Assembly: GCA_001769535.1 (NCBI GenBank)
Contig: MEOH01000027.1
Location: 158,553 to 222,552, forward strand
From: Bacteroidetes bacterium GWF2_38_335
Lineage (GTDB): Bacteria > Bacteroidota > Bacteroidia > Bacteroidales > GWF2-38-335
Length of the DNA stretch: 64,000 nucleotides
Direction: 5' to 3'
Both the position numbers and the translations under genes were made by a program. Below, one piece after another: positions 4,728 through 63,687 of the stretch. The notes beneath the pieces were generated by a model. It did no database searches. It worked only from the letters and a program-made list of their open reading frames with translations, and was not told the origin of the DNA. The first letter of the stretch is position 1. Each line of letters opens with the position of its first letter.

Positions 4728-4807
4728 TTTACTATTATTTAACATTTTTTAAATTTTCATTATCAAATTATAATCAGCTTGTTTTCAATTTCAATCGTTT
4801 TATTTCA

Positions 4808-4815
4808 TAATTTTG
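4808..4815 (+). promoter_or_regulatory. Candidate -7 box for the coiled-coil lipoprotein
   Basis: TAATTTTG matches TAnnTTTG. It overlaps the alternative upstream TTG start at 4813, and so supports the ATG at 4846 as the true start, with a leader of about 25 nt. Confidence 0.4.
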
Positions 4816-4845
4816 CCATCGTTTAACCTTTTAAAGTTTTTTAAA

Positions 4846-5715
4846 ATGAAATACTTAGTATTAGTTTTTGCAGCAGTTTTATTCTTTGCCTGCTCAGAAG
4901 AAAAAAAAGAAAATGAAAATTCTGATGTGGCAAAACTTCAGAAAGAAAATGAAGAATTGAAAAAACAGGCCGAAGAACGCGACCAGGTTATCAATGAGTT
5001 TCTTACATCATTTGATGATATTCAGGCCAATCTCAATATGATCAAGGAAAAAGAAAACATCATTACTCTTCAAACCAAAGGTGATGTTGAACTTGAACAG
5101 GACGCCAAAGATCAGATCAACGAAGATGTTCAGTTGATTTACGAACTGATGATCGAAAACAAGAAGAAAATTAACAACCTTCAGTATCAGCTGAAAAATT
5201 CCAATCTCAATATTGGCAAACTTGAAAAAATGGTTGCCGATTTAAGCGCTGCCATTGAAGCAAAAGATACTGAGATCAATAATCTTCAGGACGAACTGGC
5301 CCACATGGACATTGTAGTTGAAAAGCTCAGCAGTGAAATTGAAGAACTGGTTACAGAAACTGAAACCCAGACTGAAACAATCAATTCACAGACCGAAGAG
5401 CTAAACACTGCTTTTTATGCCTACGGTACTGAAAAAGAACTCAAAACCCAACAGATTCTGACCAAAGAAGGCGGATTCATTGGACTTGGAAAAATTGAAA
5501 AACTGCGTGAAGACTTTAACAAAGGTTATTTTACAAAGATTGACATTACCAAAGTTAAAGAAATCAAACTGAATGCAAAAAAAGCCAGATTGGTTACCAC
5601 TCACCCGGCCGGTTCATATAAATTCTGCTGCGATAAAACTTTCGACAGCATTATTATTCTGAATGCAAAAGAGTTTTGGAGTGCTTCAAAATATCTGGTT
5701 ATTGTCGTTGACTAA
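4846..5715 (+). CDS. Coiled-coil lipoprotein, 289 residues
   Basis: The ATG at 4846 gives a clean lipoprotein signal (hydrophobic stretch then FFAC, followed by SEEKKE). An in-frame TTG at 4813 would put charged residues ahead of the signal and overlaps a -7 box, so it was not used. Residues about 20-200 are heptad-rich coiled coil (long K/E/L/N/I stretches), and the last 90 residues form a separate globular part containing YAYGTEKELK and GGFIGLGKIEKL. I recall this architecture as common in Bacteroidota, where some members carry adhesin annotations, but I cannot confirm a function. The acidic and lysine-rich residues after the lipid cysteine could act as a surface-export signal (inference). 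Confidence 0.75.
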   Translation: MKYLVLVFAAVLFFACSEEKKENENSDVAKLQKENEELKKQAEERDQVINEFLTSFDDIQANLNMIKEKENIITLQTKGDVELEQDAKDQINEDVQLIYELMIENKKKINNLQYQLKNSNLNIGKLEKMVADLSAAIEAKDTEINNLQDELAHMDIVVEKLSSEIEELVTETETQTETINSQTEELNTAFYAYGTEKELKTQQILTKEGGFIGLGKIEKLREDFNKGYFTKIDITKVKEIKLNAKKARLVTTHPAGSYKFCCDKTFDSIIILNAKEFWSASKYLVIVVD

Positions 5716-5831: not shown

Positions 5832-5913
5832 TTTGGTCTTGGGTCTAAAGTATAATATAATACCATGCACTTTTTGTCAGAAAACCGATCAAATAACCAT
5901 TAAACAACACCCT

Positions 5914-6567
5914 ATGAAAACAAAAACCATATTATTTTCAGTTCTCCTGATGTCGGGAATAATCTTATTTTCCTGCGGTGAAAAAGAAGAAAAGAAAGCA
6001 GAAAAAGTTAAAAAAGAAGAAAAAAAGATTGTTGAAAACAATTCGGAAACAGAGTATATTCTTCTCAATTCAATCCTTGATTCCCTTTTAAAACTTGAAA
6101 CTCCGCCTGCTCCTTCGCCTGCAGAACTTAAAAAAATGAAAAATGGTGATAAAACCGTCATGCCTGTATTCATCAACAGTTTGTTGTTTTCAATTAACGA
6201 GGAAAGTTTTTACTATGAAAATATAAAGTATTTTAATACAGATGATGAAAGCAAAAAGCTCATAGATATTCTTGTTTCGGGAGAATCCAATGATCGTTAC
6301 CTTGCTCTTGATAAAATTAAACTCAGTGAAAAATACCAATTAATGCCTTTTGGCACAAAGGAAGAATTGAAAAAAAATGAAGGCGAATTTCCTTTATTTG
6401 CCTATGTGAAAATTTCACGGATTGCCTTTAACAAGGAAAAAAACAAGTCTTGTTTTTTCTTTGTTCTGACCTATAAAGGTAAGGGTAATGGCTATTTGGT
6501 ATTTACCGAAAAGACGGGTGAAAACTGGGGTATTAAAAATGCTGTGGGGGTATGGAAATCTGAATAA
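5914..6567 (+). CDS. Charged lipoprotein of unknown function, 217 residues
   Basis: The ATG at 5914 opens directly into a lipoprotein signal (MKTKTILFSVLLMSGIILF) with Cys following LFS. The longer upstream reading lacks a plausible start context. After the cysteine comes a tract of about 25 residues of almost only Lys and Glu, then a globular domain of about 180 residues with many aromatic positions (SFYYENIKYF, LFAYVKISRIAF, KSCFFFVLTYKGKG). I do not recognise the domain; the C-terminus resembles small beta-sandwich proteins. The Lys/Glu tract could be a linker or a surface-export signal. It is preceded by an inverted-repeat element and followed by a bidirectional terminator. Confidence 0.7.
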   Translation: MKTKTILFSVLLMSGIILFSCGEKEEKKAEKVKKEEKKIVENNSETEYILLNSILDSLLKLETPPAPSPAELKKMKNGDKTVMPVFINSLLFSINEESFYYENIKYFNTDDESKKLIDILVSGESNDRYLALDKIKLSEKYQLMPFGTKEELKKNEGEFPLFAYVKISRIAFNKEKNKSCFFFVLTYKGKGNGYLVFTEKTGENWGIKNAVGVWKSE

Positions 6568-6577
6568 TCAAAAAAAT

Positions 6578-6618
6578 CTGAATAAAAAAAAGGTGCTTTC
6601 GCACCTTTTTTTATTCAG
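6578..6618. terminator. Bidirectional Rho-independent terminator
   Basis: Stem CTGAATAAAAAAAAGGTGC, loop TTTC, then the complementary arm with a T-run on either strand. It serves the lipoprotein gene ending at 6567 (+) and the small-protein operon ending at 6611 (-), whose stop codon lies within the stem. Confidence 0.88.
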
Positions 6619-6955
6619 ATAAACCATCATGTTTTTTCTTTTTGGGTTTTTTAACCTCCTCACCCGGAGTTTGCTCCAGGTATATTTCAGCGCCGGGAAC
6701 AGGTTCGGCCTTGGATTCAACCGGATTAGACTCCAATTTCATTTCAGCAGGATTTTCAACGCCTTCTTCTTCCAATTTCATTTCTTCTTTCAGTACTTCC
6801 TTTTCAGGAACGGGTTGCAGCTGTTTTTCGAGGGTCGGACTAATTAATTCCTCTTCAGTCACAGGAGATTCAATTTTTTTCGTTTCTGTTTCTTCGGTCT
6901 GCGCATTGGCATAGTAAAAAACCGAAACAAATATCAATAATAAAATAGTTCTCAT
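6611..6955 (-). CDS. Small secreted Pro/Glu/Lys-rich protein with PGAEIYLEQ motif
   Basis: A 114-residue protein with a type I signal peptide (MRTILLLIFVSVFYYANA, cleavage probably after ANA before Gln). The mature part is low complexity, dominated by Glu, Pro, Lys and Val, and probably disordered, ending in a basic run KKPKKKKHDGLSE. Residues 84-95 read EPVPGAEIYLEQ, identical to the C-terminus of the lipoprotein encoded 11 bp upstream. The two genes form one unit ending at the terminator at 6578-6618. I do not recognise a function. The shared motif suggests that both proteins are bound or processed by the same partner in the envelope. Confidence 0.7.
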   Translation of the reverse strand: MRTILLLIFVSVFYYANAQTEETETKKIESPVTEEELISPTLEKQLQPVPEKEVLKEEMKLEEEGVENPAEMKLESNPVESKAEPVPGAEIYLEQTPGEEVKKPKKKKHDGLSE

Positions 6956-6966
6956 ATCAGCATTTT

Positions 6967-7200
6967 TTAGTTTTCCCCTGTTGGGTTTTGTTCAAGGTAA
7001 ATTTCGGCTCCCGGAACGGGTTCGCCGGTTGCTTTTTGGACAGATTCCTGGCCGCTTTCAGTTGGTGGTGCCATTGAATCGGACTGGGATTCTTCAACGG
7101 AAGATTTATCCTCAGATTTTTCCTTATTTTCCTTATTGCCTGAACATGCTGCAAACAAAGAAATTGCAGCAATAAAAGTCAAAATTCTAATTTTTTTCAC
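6967..7200 (-). CDS. Small lipoprotein with PGAEIYLEQ motif
   Basis: A 77-residue lipoprotein starting at a GTG (7200): MKKIRILTFIAAISLFAAC with lipobox FAAC, then SGNKENKEKSEDKSS. The mature part is hydrophilic and Ser/Glu/Lys-rich, and the C-terminus is GEPVPGAEIYLEQNPTGEN. The motif at 6988-7023 is identical over 12 residues to that in the next gene, but 7 of the 12 codons differ, so it is conserved at protein level. It lies 18 bp downstream of the zinc-free dehydrogenase gene and may share its transcript. Function unknown. Confidence 0.7.
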   Translation of the reverse strand: MKKIRILTFIAAISLFAACSGNKENKEKSEDKSSVEESQSDSMAPPTESGQESVQKATGEPVPGAEIYLEQNPTGEN

Positions 7201-7218: not shown

Positions 7219-8220
7219 CTAATCAAAGGTAAGTAAAATTTTACCATCCGACATGGAAGTAATGTATTTGCGAATGGCTGCTCCTGCGTCGGCAGCAGCA
7301 TACTTACTTTGAATTATGGTTTGTACGTCACCCGAAACGATCATTTTCTGTAATTCCACAGCTAGTTCATCAAATCGCTCTTTTTCAGTGTTTTTAATAT
7401 ATTGATTCAGGTCAAATCCCCTAACGGATTTATTTTTAAAAATAACATCCAGCACATCTATTCCGCCTATCGGTTCGCCCGACAAACCACCATAAACGAT
7501 AAGTTCAGCGTTTTCTGGCATTAAATTAAGAAGCATTCCGGAAGATGCTCCGCCCACCGCATCCAAAGCTACCAGAGGTTTTAATTCTGAAAAAATTTCT
7601 TTCAGTTCATCCGAATAATTATCAGATCTTGAACTGACCACATATTTTTGTCCTGCGTTTCTGAGCAAATCAACATGTTTATCCCTTCTAACAATATTGA
7701 TGATATTAACATTATCCCTTTTTGCAAAAACTCTGATAAAATTACCAACCTGACCGGCGGCAGCGTTGATCACAATGGTTCCGCCGCATTTTTCTTTAAC
7801 CGATTCATATAAAGCATAGGCAGTAAAAGGATTAACAAAAAGACATGCAGCCTGGTCGTCAGAAATATTGTCATTCAGAAAAATACAATCCCCGGGTTTT
7901 GTAAGGAAAAATTCAGCCCAGGTACCATGTCCGGATCCCTGTGCAAAAAAGCTGACCCTTTTACCGATGAACTGCTTAGCATTTTGTCCGGTTTCAACAA
8001 CAATTCCGCAACCTTCAAAGCCAATGGCTTTTGGAAGTTCCTTTTTCACGTTGTACATACCGCGCATGAAAGCGATATCGGAAGGGTTGCAGGGGGCAGC
8101 AGATAATTTTACAAGGATTTCATTTTCAGCAGGTACGGGAGTTTCGATTTCAGAAACTTTCAAGCCCTTAATGAGTTCAATCAGATTGGGGTTGTATTGT
8201 TCAAGAAGGATTGCTTTCAT
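7219..8220 (-). CDS. Zinc-independent medium-chain dehydrogenase (quinone oxidoreductase / enoyl reductase type)
   Basis: A 333-residue MDR-superfamily NAD(P)H-dependent oxidoreductase. The N-terminal GroES-like half carries AAPCNPSDIAFMRG and the KAIGFEGCG segment, and the Rossmann half has INAAAGQVGNFIRVF near residue 150, the AAxGxVG dinucleotide motif of quinone and 2-enoyl reductases. The catalytic and structural zinc ligands of alcohol dehydrogenases are absent. Likely substrates are quinones, alpha,beta-unsaturated carbonyls or enoyl thioesters. Its start overlaps the end of the upstream membrane transferase gene by 20 bp, implying translational coupling although no functional link is obvious. 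Confidence 0.85.
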   Translation of the reverse strand: MKAILLEQYNPNLIELIKGLKVSEIETPVPAENEILVKLSAAPCNPSDIAFMRGMYNVKKELPKAIGFEGCGIVVETGQNAKQFIGKRVSFFAQGSGHGTWAEFFLTKPGDCIFLNDNISDDQAACLFVNPFTAYALYESVKEKCGGTIVINAAAGQVGNFIRVFAKRDNVNIINIVRRDKHVDLLRNAGQKYVVSSRSDNYSDELKEIFSELKPLVALDAVGGASSGMLLNLMPENAELIVYGGLSGEPIGGIDVLDVIFKNKSVRGFDLNQYIKNTEKERFDELAVELQKMIVSGDVQTIIQSKYAAADAGAAIRKYITSMSDGKILLTFD

Positions 8221-58512: not shown

Positions 58513-61500
58513 ATGAACCGCTTTAAACTTACACTTGTTTTTTTGACAGTTTTGTCATTTGCATTTGGCCAAAATGCACGATTTCCTTATGCCGCTGAGG
58601 AGGATGGCTATTTTACCGGACTGTCCCAATCAATGAACGGATTGGTTTTTACCGATAACTATGCTTCTAAACTTTATATGCTGCAAAACGGTGCTCTGAA
58701 AAAAATCACCGCCTCTGCCGGCTGCGGAAGGTATTACGAAATGAGTCCGGATGGCAAAATGCTCGGCTTCAAGAAAATTACCGAAACGGGTATGCAAATC
58801 CCTACTGTTTTTGATTTCCTAACCAACAAACTGGTCGAACTCCACGCTCCCGCCGAAAAATGTGGCCAGGTGAGTTTTTCTGCTGATGGCCATATGGCTT
58901 TTACCGTCGAAAATACTCTTTTTGTGAAAAGCCAAAGCGAAACCAAAACCTACGATCTGGGCTGCTACGTGAACATTGTCAAAATTTCATCCGACGGAAA
59001 TTACGTTTCCTATGCCGATAACAACAACCAAATCCATATCCTGTTCTTTGATATCATGGAAGACAGAATCATCACATCAGGTGACCAAAATTATGCCTAT
59101 CCCCAGTTTTCTGCCAACGGAAGCCACCTGCTTTATCAGGGCGATCACATCTATGTTTATGATTTGTTGTATCAGCAGACCTACGATTTGGGTCCCGGAC
59201 TGGCTCCCAAATTCTCTGCCGATGAGGATTTTGTTATCTTCCACAAAATCATTTCCAACGAACAGACTTTCATCGGTTCCGACCTTTTCGTTAAAAAATT
59301 CGACAACAGCTTCGAAAAACAATTGACTTTTACTCCGGATGTTTATGAAATGGGTGCAAATTTTATCGGCTGGAATAAAATTGCCTGGCATACCTATTCA
59401 GGCAAACAAATTGTTTCATCCTTTTATGACAAAAACAGCTGGGAACTCAATCCGGTTGTTGAATATGCACATTCCGGCAAAATTGAAATTGAATTTTACG
59501 ACTCAAAAAATTATTACCACAATGCATCAAAAGGCGTTGTTCAATTAGGTCCGGCCCCATACGTGAATCAGGTGTATGATACGCCCGACTGGCACAATGG
59601 TCACGGTTCATGCAAGCCCACCACAGCGGTGATGGCTGCTGCTTTTTACAACCGTCTGCCCGAATGGCCAACCATCACCAACAACGAGAGTGCAACCCAT
59701 TACAACAGCTACGGCTCATACGTGGCTGATAAGTACCGCTACGACGAACTATTTTTCAATGTTTATGAAGCCGCTTACAGCACCGATGCCTGGGGCGCAT
59801 ACGGCTACATGTGGGGCACAGGCACGCCCACGGGCAGCATGCAGGAATATCTCGAGCATCACGGAATGGTTTCGAATACCATCTGGACAAGCTCCAATTC
59901 CTACCACTACACCAAAGACGAAATTGATCTGGGTTATCCGCATCCCATCTGCTCGTACATCACCAGCGTGGGCCATGTGAAACTGGCCATTGGCTATATC
60001 GAGGGATTGCATTCCATCATGTTCAACGATCCTTACGGGAACAAAAACCTTCCGGGATATCCGAACCCTTATGGAGCCGGAGCCATTTACGACTGGCCGG
60101 GTTACAACAACGGATACGTGAACCTCGATGTGGACGGCAGTCACGGCGTCATTGCATGGTCAACACGGGCACGCAGCACGCAGCCCAATTACAGCAATTT
60201 AGTGATTGATGATGACCATTTCGGACATGGGTTTTACGTGGAAAACACGATCAGCACCCTAGGCGGCGGATACAACATCCAGCAGTATTACCGTGATCAA
60301 AACACAGGTTACAACGGACATTCGTGGTGGACAATTACCGAATCAACCGGAGTTGATATTTGTTTTGTAAACTGGACTCCCACCATCACCGAACCCGGAA
60401 ATTACAAGATTGAAGTGTATATTCCGGCCACCAACGCCACCGCCACCACAGCACCTTATAAAATTTATTATTCGGGAGGAAACACCACCGTTTCAGTGAA
60501 TCAAAATATTTATTCAGATCAGTGGGTAGATTTGGGAACGTACTTTTTTGATGCCGGAACCACAGGTTATGTGCATCTGGGAGATATGACAGGAATCACC
60601 GGTCAATCTTTGGCTTTTGATGCCATGAGATGGACAAAAATCACCTCGCCCGTATCTTTAACAGCCACAAATATTTCATGTTTCGGACAGAATGACGGAA
60701 GCATTTCAGCAGGATTAGCCGGAGGAACACCTCCCATCTCCTATTTATGGAATAATGCGGCCACGAGTTCATCAATAACCGGACTGGAACCCGGAGTTTA
60801 CACTGTAACGGTTACCGATGCCGTTGATTCGTATATTGCTTCAACAACCATTTCAGAACCAGCGGAAATCAATGCAAACGTATCAGTCACTCCGCCCACA
60901 GCCCCCGGCCTATCTGACGGATCGGCTCAGGTTTCTGTAACAGGCGGAGTTCCGGCTTATACTTATTTATGGACACCCGGAGGATTGGGAACCGATACCC
61001 AAACCGGACTACCAACCGGAACATACAGCGTTTTGATTCAGGATGTAAACGGATGCGAAAAAGAAATAAATTTCACTGTTTCTGATCCAACTTGTTTGAT
61101 ACCTACCGGATTAACAACCACCGCCATCACACAATCTGAAGCCACACTAAACTGGAACGCAATTTCAGGCGCTTTGGGTTATGCAGTTAAAGTTACCGAA
61201 GAAGGATGGCCAATATCCTGGGAATATTTTTCTGCGGATAACAGTCTGAACATCTCAGGATTATGCTTGGGAACCGATTATACATGGGAAGTGGCCACCA
61301 TTTGCGACAACGATTCATCTGTCTGGGTCAGCTCGACATTCACCACTTCTGCAACACTTTCGAACTACGGCAGCACCGATTGTTCGGGAATTTTCACCGA
61401 TGCAGGCGGAAGCACCCACCATTATGGCAATTCACAGGATTTTGTTTTCACTCTGACACCAACCGGAGCTACAGAAATCACCATGATTTTTGATGCTTTC

Positions 61501-63687
61501 GATCTGGAACCGGGTAGCGGAGCCACCTGCGATTACGATTATCTTAAAATTTATGATGGGCCAAGCACCTCATCCACTTTGTTGGGAACCTATTGCAATA
61601 CCACCGGTTCGCCCGGCACAATATTGTCTTCGGGTGGCAGTCTGACTTTCCAGTTTCACTCCGATGGCTCAACTGTTCGTCCGGGCTGGGTTGCCCGATG
61701 GATGAGTGACGGAACCGGTTGCGGAAATCCTGCTACTCTGGTTGATGAGCCCGCGACCGAATGGCAAACCGAAGATTTTTCAGCCACCTTCACCGATACC
61801 GATGTCAATTCCTACGGATTAAACCAACGTTTCTATCAGGTACTCGATTTCAACGGAACCAGCTGGTGGAGCAATACCGACAAGGGATTTCTTGCTGATG
61901 ATTTTTCCTCAACACTTAATCCGGAGTGGGTAAGCAGTTCGGGGACATGGTCTGTGACCGGAGGAAATTTATATCAATCAAATCAGTCAGTGAGCAACAC
62001 CAATCTGTACATTCCCATTGAGCAAAGCAATGAATATGCCTATTTATATCAGTTTAAAATGCAGATCATCGGCGGAGATGCCACACGACGCGCCGGACTG
62101 CATATTTTCTGCGACGATCCAACCTTGACCGAGCGGGGCAATTCATATCTGGCATGGTTCAGGATTGCCGAGGGGGAAATGCAGCTCTGGAAAAACGTGG
62201 ACAATGTAGATTATCTGGAAACAACCGGAACAGTTCCTCTTGCTAACGGCACCTGGTACGATGTGAAAATGCTTTTCAATCCCGATTCACTTTACGGAGA
62301 ATTTACTGTTTTTGTAAACGACCAGAAAATTGTTTCGTGGGTTGATCACAATCCGCACACCACCGCCAACAGCATCTCCCTGCGCACCCGCTTGTGCTCT
62401 GCCTATTTCGACGACATCAAAGTATACAAATCAAGACCGGGAACAAAATGGATTGAAATCGGCAGTTCAACAGACGACATCCGCTATCAAAACCCAAATC
62501 CTGCAACACCCTCAGCCGTACTGTCCACCCTAGTGGTGGACAATTTCGACAGATTCTCTGTCGAAATGAATCATCCCTTCAACATCGATTGGACACCACC
62601 TGCCAGTATCACCACCATCAACGACGGATTGACCGCCGATGAAGACCTCACGTCCTCAACCAATGAGCTTTCGGCCAACTGGACGGGATCAACAGATGTG
62701 AATTCGGACATTGCAGATTACTGGTACGCCATTGGCACCACATCAGGAGGAAATGATCTGGTTGATTGGACATCCAATGGAACAACCACCAATTTTACAG
62801 CAACCGGATTATCGTTGGTAAACGGACAAACCTATTACATCTCGGTAAAAGCAGAAAACGGGGCCGGTTTGTATTCGGGAGTTACCACCTCAGATGGCAT
62901 TACAGCAGAATACTCGGTGGTTTCCGCTTCATTTTCAACCCCCTTTACAGACATATGCGAAGATTCAGAAATTGACTTTCTCAACAATTCATCCAATGCC
63001 GATTCCTATTTATGGATCTTTGAAGGAGGAACACCGGCGACCACAACCGACCCCGAACCAACGGTTACATGGGCAGAACCGGGAGATTATGATGTTACAT
63101 TGATTGCATACCACGGCATAGACAGTGACACCCTGACCATTGAAAATTATGTGATTATGCATGCCGCTCCGGTTGCGGGGTTTACTGTGAATTCTGACAC
63201 TTTATATATACCCGGGGCAACAGCCACCTTTACAAACACCTCAGAAAACGCCAACCTTTTTCACTGGCATTTCGGAAATGGTGATTCCTCAAATGATATT
63301 AATCCATACTGTATCTATGATGCCGAGGGGGTTTATACCATAACGCTGGTATCCTGGAACAGCTATTGTGATCCTGACACGCTGGTAATGGAAGATTACA
63401 TTGTCGTGTTGAACTCCATCAGCATAACCGAAACAGCAGCAAATTCAGCTCTTACCGTATATCCCAATCCCGGAAACGGGGAGTTTGTGGTTGAGATGAA
63501 GGGTATTGAAGCAAGCAGGTTGGAAATTACCGACCTCACCGGAAAAACCATTAAAACAATATTAATCCCAAATCCACAGCAACAATTAAAAGTTGATCTA
63601 AGCAAAGCCGAAAAAGGAATTTACTTTTTCAAGATATACACAAGGGATGAAGGTTATTTTGTAAAGAAGATTCTATTGGTAGAATAA
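58513..63687 (+). CDS. Giant T9SS cargo protein with C39-like peptidase domain
   Basis: 1724 residues. Signal peptide (cut before QNARF); TolB-like propeller about 20-330; C39-like cysteine peptidase-type domain about 345-545 with Cys367 in GSCKPTTAVMAA, His488 in VGHVKLAIGY and Asn505-Asp506 in FNDPYG; golvesin-like domain about 575-710; two SprB-type repeats about 712-865 (NISCFGQNDGSI); FN3 about 870-950; CUB domain about 953-1068; LamG-like part about 1090-1310; FN3 near 1375-1470; two PKD-type domains about 1480-1640; T9SS sorting domain about 1650-1724 (VYPNPGNGEFVVEM). A surface or secreted peptidase is predicted; the propeller could gate or bind substrate (inference). Confidence 0.88.
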   Translation: MNRFKLTLVFLTVLSFAFGQNARFPYAAEEDGYFTGLSQSMNGLVFTDNYASKLYMLQNGALKKITASAGCGRYYEMSPDGKMLGFKKITETGMQIPTVFDFLTNKLVELHAPAEKCGQVSFSADGHMAFTVENTLFVKSQSETKTYDLGCYVNIVKISSDGNYVSYADNNNQIHILFFDIMEDRIITSGDQNYAYPQFSANGSHLLYQGDHIYVYDLLYQQTYDLGPGLAPKFSADEDFVIFHKIISNEQTFIGSDLFVKKFDNSFEKQLTFTPDVYEMGANFIGWNKIAWHTYSGKQIVSSFYDKNSWELNPVVEYAHSGKIEIEFYDSKNYYHNASKGVVQLGPAPYVNQVYDTPDWHNGHGSCKPTTAVMAAAFYNRLPEWPTITNNESATHYNSYGSYVADKYRYDELFFNVYEAAYSTDAWGAYGYMWGTGTPTGSMQEYLEHHGMVSNTIWTSSNSYHYTKDEIDLGYPHPICSYITSVGHVKLAIGYIEGLHSIMFNDPYGNKNLPGYPNPYGAGAIYDWPGYNNGYVNLDVDGSHGVIAWSTRARSTQPNYSNLVIDDDHFGHGFYVENTISTLGGGYNIQQYYRDQNTGYNGHSWWTITESTGVDICFVNWTPTITEPGNYKIEVYIPATNATATTAPYKIYYSGGNTTVSVNQNIYSDQWVDLGTYFFDAGTTGYVHLGDMTGITGQSLAFDAMRWTKITSPVSLTATNISCFGQNDGSISAGLAGGTPPISYLWNNAATSSSITGLEPGVYTVTVTDAVDSYIASTTISEPAEINANVSVTPPTAPGLSDGSAQVSVTGGVPAYTYLWTPGGLGTDTQTGLPTGTYSVLIQDVNGCEKEINFTVSDPTCLIPTGLTTTAITQSEATLNWNAISGALGYAVKVTEEGWPISWEYFSADNSLNISGLCLGTDYTWEVATICDNDSSVWVSSTFTTSATLSNYGSTDCSGIFTDAGGSTHHYGNSQDFVFTLTPTGATEITMIFDAFDLEPGSGATCDYDYLKIYDGPSTSSTLLGTYCNTTGSPGTILSSGGSLTFQFHSDGSTVRPGWVARWMSDGTGCGNPATLVDEPATEWQTEDFSATFTDTDVNSYGLNQRFYQVLDFNGTSWWSNTDKGFLADDFSSTLNPEWVSSSGTWSVTGGNLYQSNQSVSNTNLYIPIEQSNEYAYLYQFKMQIIGGDATRRAGLHIFCDDPTLTERGNSYLAWFRIAEGEMQLWKNVDNVDYLETTGTVPLANGTWYDVKMLFNPDSLYGEFTVFVNDQKIVSWVDHNPHTTANSISLRTRLCSAYFDDIKVYKSRPGTKWIEIGSSTDDIRYQNPNPATPSAVLSTLVVDNFDRFSVEMNHPFNIDWTPPASITTINDGLTADEDLTSSTNELSANWTGSTDVNSDIADYWYAIGTTSGGNDLVDWTSNGTTTNFTATGLSLVNGQTYYISVKAENGAGLYSGVTTSDGITAEYSVVSASFSTPFTDICEDSEIDFLNNSSNADSYLWIFEGGTPATTTDPEPTVTWAEPGDYDVTLIAYHGIDSDTLTIENYVIMHAAPVAGFTVNSDTLYIPGATATFTNTSENANLFHWHFGNGDSSNDINPYCIYDAEGVYTITLVSWNSYCDPDTLVMEDYIVVLNSISITETAANSALTVYPNPGNGEFVVEMKGIEASRLEITDLTGKTIKTILIPNPQQQLKVDLSKAEKGIYFFKIYTRDEGYFVKKILLVE

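Follow-up and report, generated by a model that had tools for sequence, protein, structure and literature searches.

Analysis of two adjacent tiny genes in the window, the whole 64,000-nucleotide stretch of Bacteroidetes bacterium GWF2_38_335 DNA studied here, revealed a 12-residue peptide, EPVPGAEIYLEQ, that is common to both products and recurs in a subset of large T9SS proteins. Sequence comparison across genomes indicates that the spelling of this peptide tracks the genome more than the gene, the same-genome modules of the large proteins usually being identical or nearly so. We favour, with a confidence somewhat short of an even chance, the reading that EPVPGAEIYLEQ is a short recognition tag, common to a subset of T9SS cargo and to the tiny proteins, which would be read by one coevolving partner per lineage.

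The features of the locus, in window coordinates, are as follows.

6611-6955, minus strand: gene A, 114 aa with an ATG start, an exported low-complexity protein of the signal peptidase I type with a syntenic orthologue in genome G001.
6902-6955, minus strand: signal peptide of A, residues 1-18, ending in ANA ahead of Q, judged by eye from the sequence.
6671-6706, minus strand: EPVPGAEIYLEQ in A, residues 84-95, near the C-terminus, with a 19-residue charged tail behind it.
6967-7200, minus strand: gene B, 77 aa with a GTG start, a predicted lipoprotein.
7144-7200, minus strand: lipoprotein signal peptide of B, with the lipobox Cys at residue 19 (FAAC, lipobox-like by eye, at residues 16-19).
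6988-7023, minus strand: EPVPGAEIYLEQ in B, residues 60-71, ending six residues before the C-terminus of B.
7219-8220, minus strand: zinc-type alcohol dehydrogenase / quinone reductase-like gene upstream of B, a flanking gene conserved in G001.
6577-6619, no strand: near-perfect palindrome read from the sequence, a probable bidirectional terminator that overlaps the A stop and lies between A and the convergent plus-strand gene 5833-6567; it is absent from the output of the terminator scan.

B lies upstream of A on the same strand, with a gap of 11 nt. Codon comparison confirmed what the first-pass annotation had described here, namely two adjacent tiny exported proteins that share a 12-residue motif in which 7 of the 12 codons are silently different: A and B agree at all 12 residues, and the seven codons differ by seven bases, all synonymous. 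When mature A and B were shuffled 20,000 times, the longest run common to both never exceeded seven residues, compared with the 12 observed. Neither protein matched a Pfam or NCBIfam model above cut-off; the N-terminus of B gave weak matches to lipoprotein models, all far below cut-off, and was likewise the only part of B to match PHROGs, again weakly. An AlphaFold2 model of B, made from three sequences, was of low confidence (mean pLDDT 62.6, averaging 53 over residues 21-50) and consisted of a signal helix only.

Just beyond the tiny genes, on the opposite strand, the window encodes two larger predicted lipoproteins (4813-5715 and 5833-6567), one of which has a long coiled-coil-like stretch. 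The motif is absent from both, and when they were compared by blastp with the neighbours of tiny genes in other genomes, neither gave a match.

Our searches met a single further genome of the genus, G001, in which A and B keep their order and again lie next to the reductase gene. All 12 motif residues are kept in both proteins, while outside the motif only 25 of 61 residues of B and 34 of 101 residues of A are identical to those of the own genome (the reductase retains 209 of 333). Conservation of the entire motif as the rest diverges argues for selection on the protein sequence. The protein-level selection proposed in the first-pass annotation is thus well supported, both by these orthologues and by silent sites that are close to random between tiny genes and modules (see below); neither G001 orthologue has lost the motif, and the copies in A and B did not arise by recent duplication.

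A search of the own genome with B located the motif in three large proteins (G000 C25 twice, C1), and motif matches at E ≤ 0.5 in this genome number five in all, two tiny and three large. In the large proteins the motif forms strand B of a CarboxypepD_reg-like domain (PF13620) that precedes a T9SS type A sorting domain. GEPVPGAEIYLEQEPEGEPI is common to all three, the tiny proteins matching just its first 12-14 residues, and all three also bear SprB repeats. The four modules scanned, each comprising this domain and the sorting domain behind it, all passed the PF13620 gathering score of 32.3 (32.5-43.6 bits) and the TIGR04183 cut-off of 23 (28.9-45.9 bits), and among the three full-length proteins PF13620 scores of 36.8 and 37 passed and one of 31.3 fell just under. 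The own genome contains at least 150 T9SS sorting domains (150 of 466 candidates were scored, all above cut-off), and the 150 matches listed include one of the three tagged proteins. By these tests the large proteins are unremarkable T9SS type A cargo carrying a CarboxypepD_reg domain, and the tiny proteins belong to neither family: B scored 13.7 bits over positions 6-28 of the 82 in the PF13620 profile, A gave no PF13620 match at E ≤ 1, and neither gave a Por_Secre_tail match at E ≤ 1. Thus the motif that had been noted in the tiny proteins is indeed present there, but it is not private to them, being also strand B of this domain in a subset of T9SS cargo. Elsewhere in the window, a 1724-aa frame (58513-63687) also has a T9SS type A sorting domain at its end (G000 C27:222009-222227, at about 63457-63675 of the window).

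An AlphaFold2 model of the module (the G001 copy, L131; mean pLDDT 76.7, pTM 0.52) placed the motif in a beta-sandwich strand, residues 37-42. A structure search with the module yielded beta-sandwich matches with low TM-scores, and by sequence comparison its two best solved relatives match the sorting-domain half only.

The domain also occurs without the peptide. A motif-blind profile (A6, the domain minus the motif) matched 71 times at E ≤ 1e-3, across 12 genomes; the six weaker matches were dropped, leaving 65 at E < 1e-6. The motif (E < 1e-4) was present in 42 of these and absent from 23, a biased sample rather than a frequency because A6 was built from motif-bearing modules. In the own genome three of five domain copies are tagged, and the remaining two read NPISNVNIFLTK and DPVSGMSVFLVS at the same place. 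The existence of untagged copies indicates that the fold does not need the peptide. Several of the 23 partly resemble the motif (for example GEPLSGIEVTIEQDP in G047 and LGNPVSGADIFIERK in G191), and the boundary between tagged and untagged copies is, as judged from these sequences, not perfectly sharp.

Sampling of 393 genomes of the order gave a motif match at E ≤ 0.05 in 27 and at E ≤ 1e-3 in 15. Eleven tiny exported proteins were found in eight of the 393, in four families (f1, f47, f63 and f65), and all of those genomes also have tagged modules. By eye, each begins with a signal peptide or lipobox and continues with a low-complexity, charged stretch, and the motif falls in the second half of the protein, close to the C-terminus or right at it. 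One more tiny protein each came from G787 and G783, f63 genomes identified afterwards; G783 (94% complete) had no module match at E ≤ 1e-3. Conversely, no tiny protein was found in f53, f90 and some f47 and f65 genomes despite their tagged modules. Four genomes in the collection were duplicates (G774 = G785, G776 = G169, G781 = G090 and G782 = G324). The search across Bacteroidota suggested in the first-pass annotation did not recover the motif phylum-wide: among 395 genomes of the class only the own genome gave a match below E 3.3e-4, the other matches being weak (E 3.3e-4 to 5e-3) and in frames of at least 375 residues, and the phylum beyond the class was covered solely by an exact-pattern scan.

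In Melioribacteraceae, Ignavibacteriales, Chlorobiota and two other Bacteroidota, mid-size exported proteins carry GEPVPGAEI(Y/I)IE(L/Q)EP (loci L134:4234-4701 and 4756-5322, L137:1085-1540, L148:4923-5528, L140:4692-5204 and L142:4941-5486). The peptide follows soon after the signal peptide in four of them and lies further inside in one (L140). The gene that follows in L134 has the C-terminus YGINDDGIK, and a similar YGINDVIK closes the motif protein of L148, an arrangement that looks like a fusion of two neighbours.

Comparison by blastp of the genes around the eleven tiny-gene loci showed neighbours that are common within genera but mostly not between families, and this search for a conserved neighbourhood gave no candidate for a partner or reader. 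A weak cross-family pair was found in G065 and G390 (29% identity over 63 residues). In addition, G169 (f65; L085:3636-5367) and G783 (f63; L315:2148-4432) each have a uridine-kinase-like and a PolB-type exonuclease-like gene no more than about 2 kb from the tiny gene. The recurrence of the same two neighbours hints at descent of the tiny gene from one old gene, and suggests that they mark an old common gene rather than a partner.

The spelling of the peptide differed between families in the 42 strict modules. It was EPVPGAEIYLEQ in all seven f1 modules, DPVPGA(E/D)(I/V)(Y/F)IEQ in f47 (n = 6), EPVPGAEI(L/I)(I/V)EQ (n = 7) or EPVPGAEITVEQ (n = 1) in f63, EP(I/V)PGAE(I/V)TLEQ in f65 (n = 13), EPVPGAE(I/V)Y(I/V)EL in f90 (n = 4) and mixed in f53 (n = 4). 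Motif-bearing modules outside the strict pattern were left out (among them G047 C181, G262 C297, G191 C98, C38 and C129, and G169 C174); the first four of those named keep much of the family spelling, with one to four positions changed. Spelling and tree tests were run on the 40 of the 42 that end 150-190 residues past the motif (without L165 and L276), and preceded the finding of G784, G783 and G787. Both modules of G784, a further f63 genome, read EPVIGAEVF(I/V)EQ, unlike the rest of f63.

Agreement of spelling within genomes exceeds what the relatedness of the genes would give. Among module pairs that are 35-45% identical over the 75 residues following the motif stretch, the 12-mer was 0.967 identical in 20 within-genome pairs, 75% of them fully identical, compared with 0.742 in 406 between-family pairs, in which the fraction fully identical was 0.00; between-family pairs at 20-35% identity had a fully identical 12-mer in 2% of 118 cases. 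In a sliding-window comparison of the 40 modules, the motif window ranked first of 188 for within-genome identity. Ranked by the gap between within-genome and between-family identity it was 13th, and the top eight windows start in the motif and extend behind it.

A tree of 57 modules, made with the motif stretch excluded, allowed spelling to be compared with gene relatedness directly. It comprises 40 tagged modules and 17 of the 23 untagged copies (L211, L212, L218, L219, G090 C105 and G191 C38 were left out), and its labels split the tagged and untagged copies of a family, which raises label-change counts. Well-supported clades mix families: one (99/98) joins f47, f65 and f90 with an untagged f90 copy, and another (96/86) joins f1, f47 and f90. 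The f63 modules form one group. Even the seven closest different-family pairs (tree distance 0.83-1.25) differ at 4-8 of 20 positions. At distances of 1.5-2.0, the mean number of differences per 20 positions was 0.50 for same-genome pairs (10 pairs) versus 5.10 for different-family pairs (84 pairs); at 2.0-2.5 it was 1.76 (21 pairs) versus 5.75 (291 pairs), and at 2.5-3.2 it was 0.80 (5 pairs) versus 5.93 (210 pairs). No position differs in the three same-genome pairs that lie furthest apart (3.65-3.90), although all involve the long-branch L129, whose place on the tree is unsure. Exceptions to one spelling per genome occur in G047, G169, G260 and G390, the last of which has two module spellings, and in one linker copy in G787 (see below); the G047 module L273, for example, differs from two other G047 modules at 6 of 20 positions.

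The tiny proteins, on average, follow the spelling of their family as well. In all four families they are nearest to their own family's modules, an outcome that only 1 of 360 assignments equals in this set of four families. The tiny 12-mer is identical to that of an own-genome module in 7 of 11 cases, and differs at one position in G047 and G065, at two in G169 and at four in G260.

These data bear on an alternative account of the peptide, that the tiny genes are leftovers of a truncated cargo domain and the motif an ordinary CarboxypepD_reg hairpin start, with agreement among copies due to descent or gene conversion. The motif does fit strand B of PF13620, to which B shows its sub-threshold match, and the modules partly cluster by family, as the single f63 group illustrates. 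Third-base identity at 4-fold sites among same-genome modules is also somewhat above that between families (0.404 versus 0.323; 0.399 within families). Nevertheless, the third bases have clearly not been homogenised, and at these sites tiny genes agree with modules of the same genome about as often as pooled codon usage predicts (0.346 identical versus 0.340 expected, with one linker copy counted among the tiny genes). Gene conversion is therefore unlikely, and pure descent is weakened by the tree, on which near relatives from different families differ and same-genome copies mostly agree. In addition, orthologous tiny genes hold all 12 residues with the rest at 34-41% identity, and untagged copies maintain the fold without need of the peptide. 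We consider this account largely refuted and quite improbable.

A third type of carrier was found in two genomes of a single f63 genus, GWA2_32_17 (G774) and G787: a two-part protein that lacks a signal peptide and has the peptide in its linker. Of the four linker copies, one is in a frame-broken gene and three are in unbroken genes; three read ILIEQ and one ITIEQ. The possibility that the linker motif of L164 is noise in a broken gene was ruled out by the three unbroken G787 copies. These proteins, which look alpha-helical by eye, belong to a multi-copy family of about 265 aa with L308, L309 and L310 in G787 and L223, L224, L236 and L241 in G090 and G191. Ten relatives were found in G090 and G191, and the motif was absent from the five linkers read. 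Pfam gave no match for two members of the family, and for one of these two NCBIfam, PHROGs and the PDB gave none either. In G787 C6 and C108 (L312-L314), short repeat frames (EVAKASCEVVK, FAKVFGQ, TKDV) adjoin each linker-carrying gene.

The linker copies bear on the proposal in the first-pass annotation that the peptide is the tag or ligand of an envelope system. Tag or ligand is still the best reading, but carriers without a signal peptide, in this one genus, place an exclusively envelope system in doubt: such copies would not fit a reader confined to the envelope unless they are exported by another route.

The same spelling in unrelated hosts, including linkers in two genomes of one genus, is also what would be expected of a mobile in-frame mini-element, a short coding segment that copies itself into tolerant sites of unrelated genes within each lineage. 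Such an element is highly improbable here. Motif matches at E < 1e-4 in 16 searched genomes all fall in open frames of at least 65 residues, and silent divergence among the copies is large with the amino acids kept, indicating that any copies were under protein-level selection after arrival.

A recognition tag is the simplest account of the peptide, and how it would act can be outlined as follows. A partner, either a receptor or an assembly factor, would read the tag as an extended strand, and if the specificity of this partner drifts by lineage, the tag carriers of a genome would have to keep the local spelling. Carriers of the first type would be those T9SS surface proteins whose CarboxypepD_reg-like domain, adjacent to the C-terminal sorting domain, has the tag as its strand B. 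The second type would be the tiny exported proteins, in which a flexible, charged tether links the tag to a signal or lipid anchor; these may dock on the partner that the tagged cargo uses, occupy it or tether it. More broadly, and with some further reserve, it is possible that some environmental Bacteroidales use a genome-specific peptide code, in which a tag of 12-20 residues with a coevolving reader is placed on T9SS proteins, tiny tethered proteins and, in one genus, signal-less proteins, and serves as a lineage password to one assembly or address.

A different mechanism would require no additional gene to explain the within-genome agreement. If like binds like, the free peptide of a tiny protein could pair with or replace strand B of the module by strand exchange, which would make the tiny protein a chaperone for tagged cargo, or its anchor, and would oblige all copies to match one another. 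The location of the motif in a strand of the predicted beta-sandwich is consistent with this, as is the match of f1 and most f63 tiny proteins to the modules at all 12 positions, including those expected from the alternating pattern to face the core, and type V pili of Bacteroidales are an established case of strand exchange. However, the 21 untagged copies read keep sequence at strand B, so that no empty groove is evident, and the linker copies are left unexplained; we regard strand exchange as rather unlikely.

Alternatively, the peptide could be a processing site, recognised by an endopeptidase or transpeptidase that cuts or crosslinks cargo and tiny proteins and whose specificity drifts by lineage. 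Coevolution of enzyme and substrate would yield a genome-wide spelling, and the motif occupies accessible places in the tiny proteins and linkers and lies 162-175 residues from the protein end in 40 of 42 modules. Yet in the cargo it is a strand of a predicted folded domain, a poor cleavage site. Moreover, unlike exosortase or sortase signals, it has neither a transmembrane segment nor a basic tail behind it: B stops six residues past the motif, and the charged tail of A lacks a transmembrane stretch. Processing thus appears improbable, and recognition of the peptide as a tag by a coevolving partner is the reading that we carry forward.

T9SS cargo is selected by its C-terminal domain. A review of the system leaves open, in the part drawn on here, how different signals are told apart and whether destinations differ (PMC10202324). 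If the recognition-tag reading is correct, a second peptide with genome-specific spelling, carried by a few of the cargo proteins and also presented by tethered tiny proteins, would constitute a new layer of sorting or assembly, and the different natural spellings would be ready-made controls for finding the reader. A literature search that included the exact peptide returned no description of such a tag as judged by titles and the start of abstracts, with most subscription papers and preprints outside its coverage.

Comparison with known systems suggested partial parallels. In the part of PMC7712824 drawn on here, PorA is a sorting-domain protein that acts on PorXY-SigP and is reported only from Porphyromonas, which provides a precedent for a small exported protein that shares a feature with cargo and acts on the T9SS itself; unlike the tiny proteins, PorA has a folded domain and a CTD, and no sequence relation between them is evident. 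The closest match by family is CarboxypepD_reg (PF13620) before a T9SS type A sorting domain (TIGR04183 / PF18962), of which the motif is the B strand in the large proteins, but the tiny proteins have neither the rest of this domain nor the sorting domain, and the fold does not need the exact spelling. The type V pilus likewise joins envelope lipoproteins to a beta-sandwich partner through a strand, whereas no folded domain is apparent in the tiny proteins, and the domain copies without the tag retain a strand B of their own. Finally, in PEP-CTERM/exosortase and LPXTG/sortase systems a motif is followed at the C-terminus by a transmembrane segment and basic residues, and we know of no enzyme for the tag described here, unlike these signals. 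As in those systems, a short peptide is common to otherwise unrelated exported proteins and presumably has one dedicated reader; the tag differs from them in lacking a transmembrane segment or basic tail, in being a folded strand in cargo and in its genome-specific spelling.
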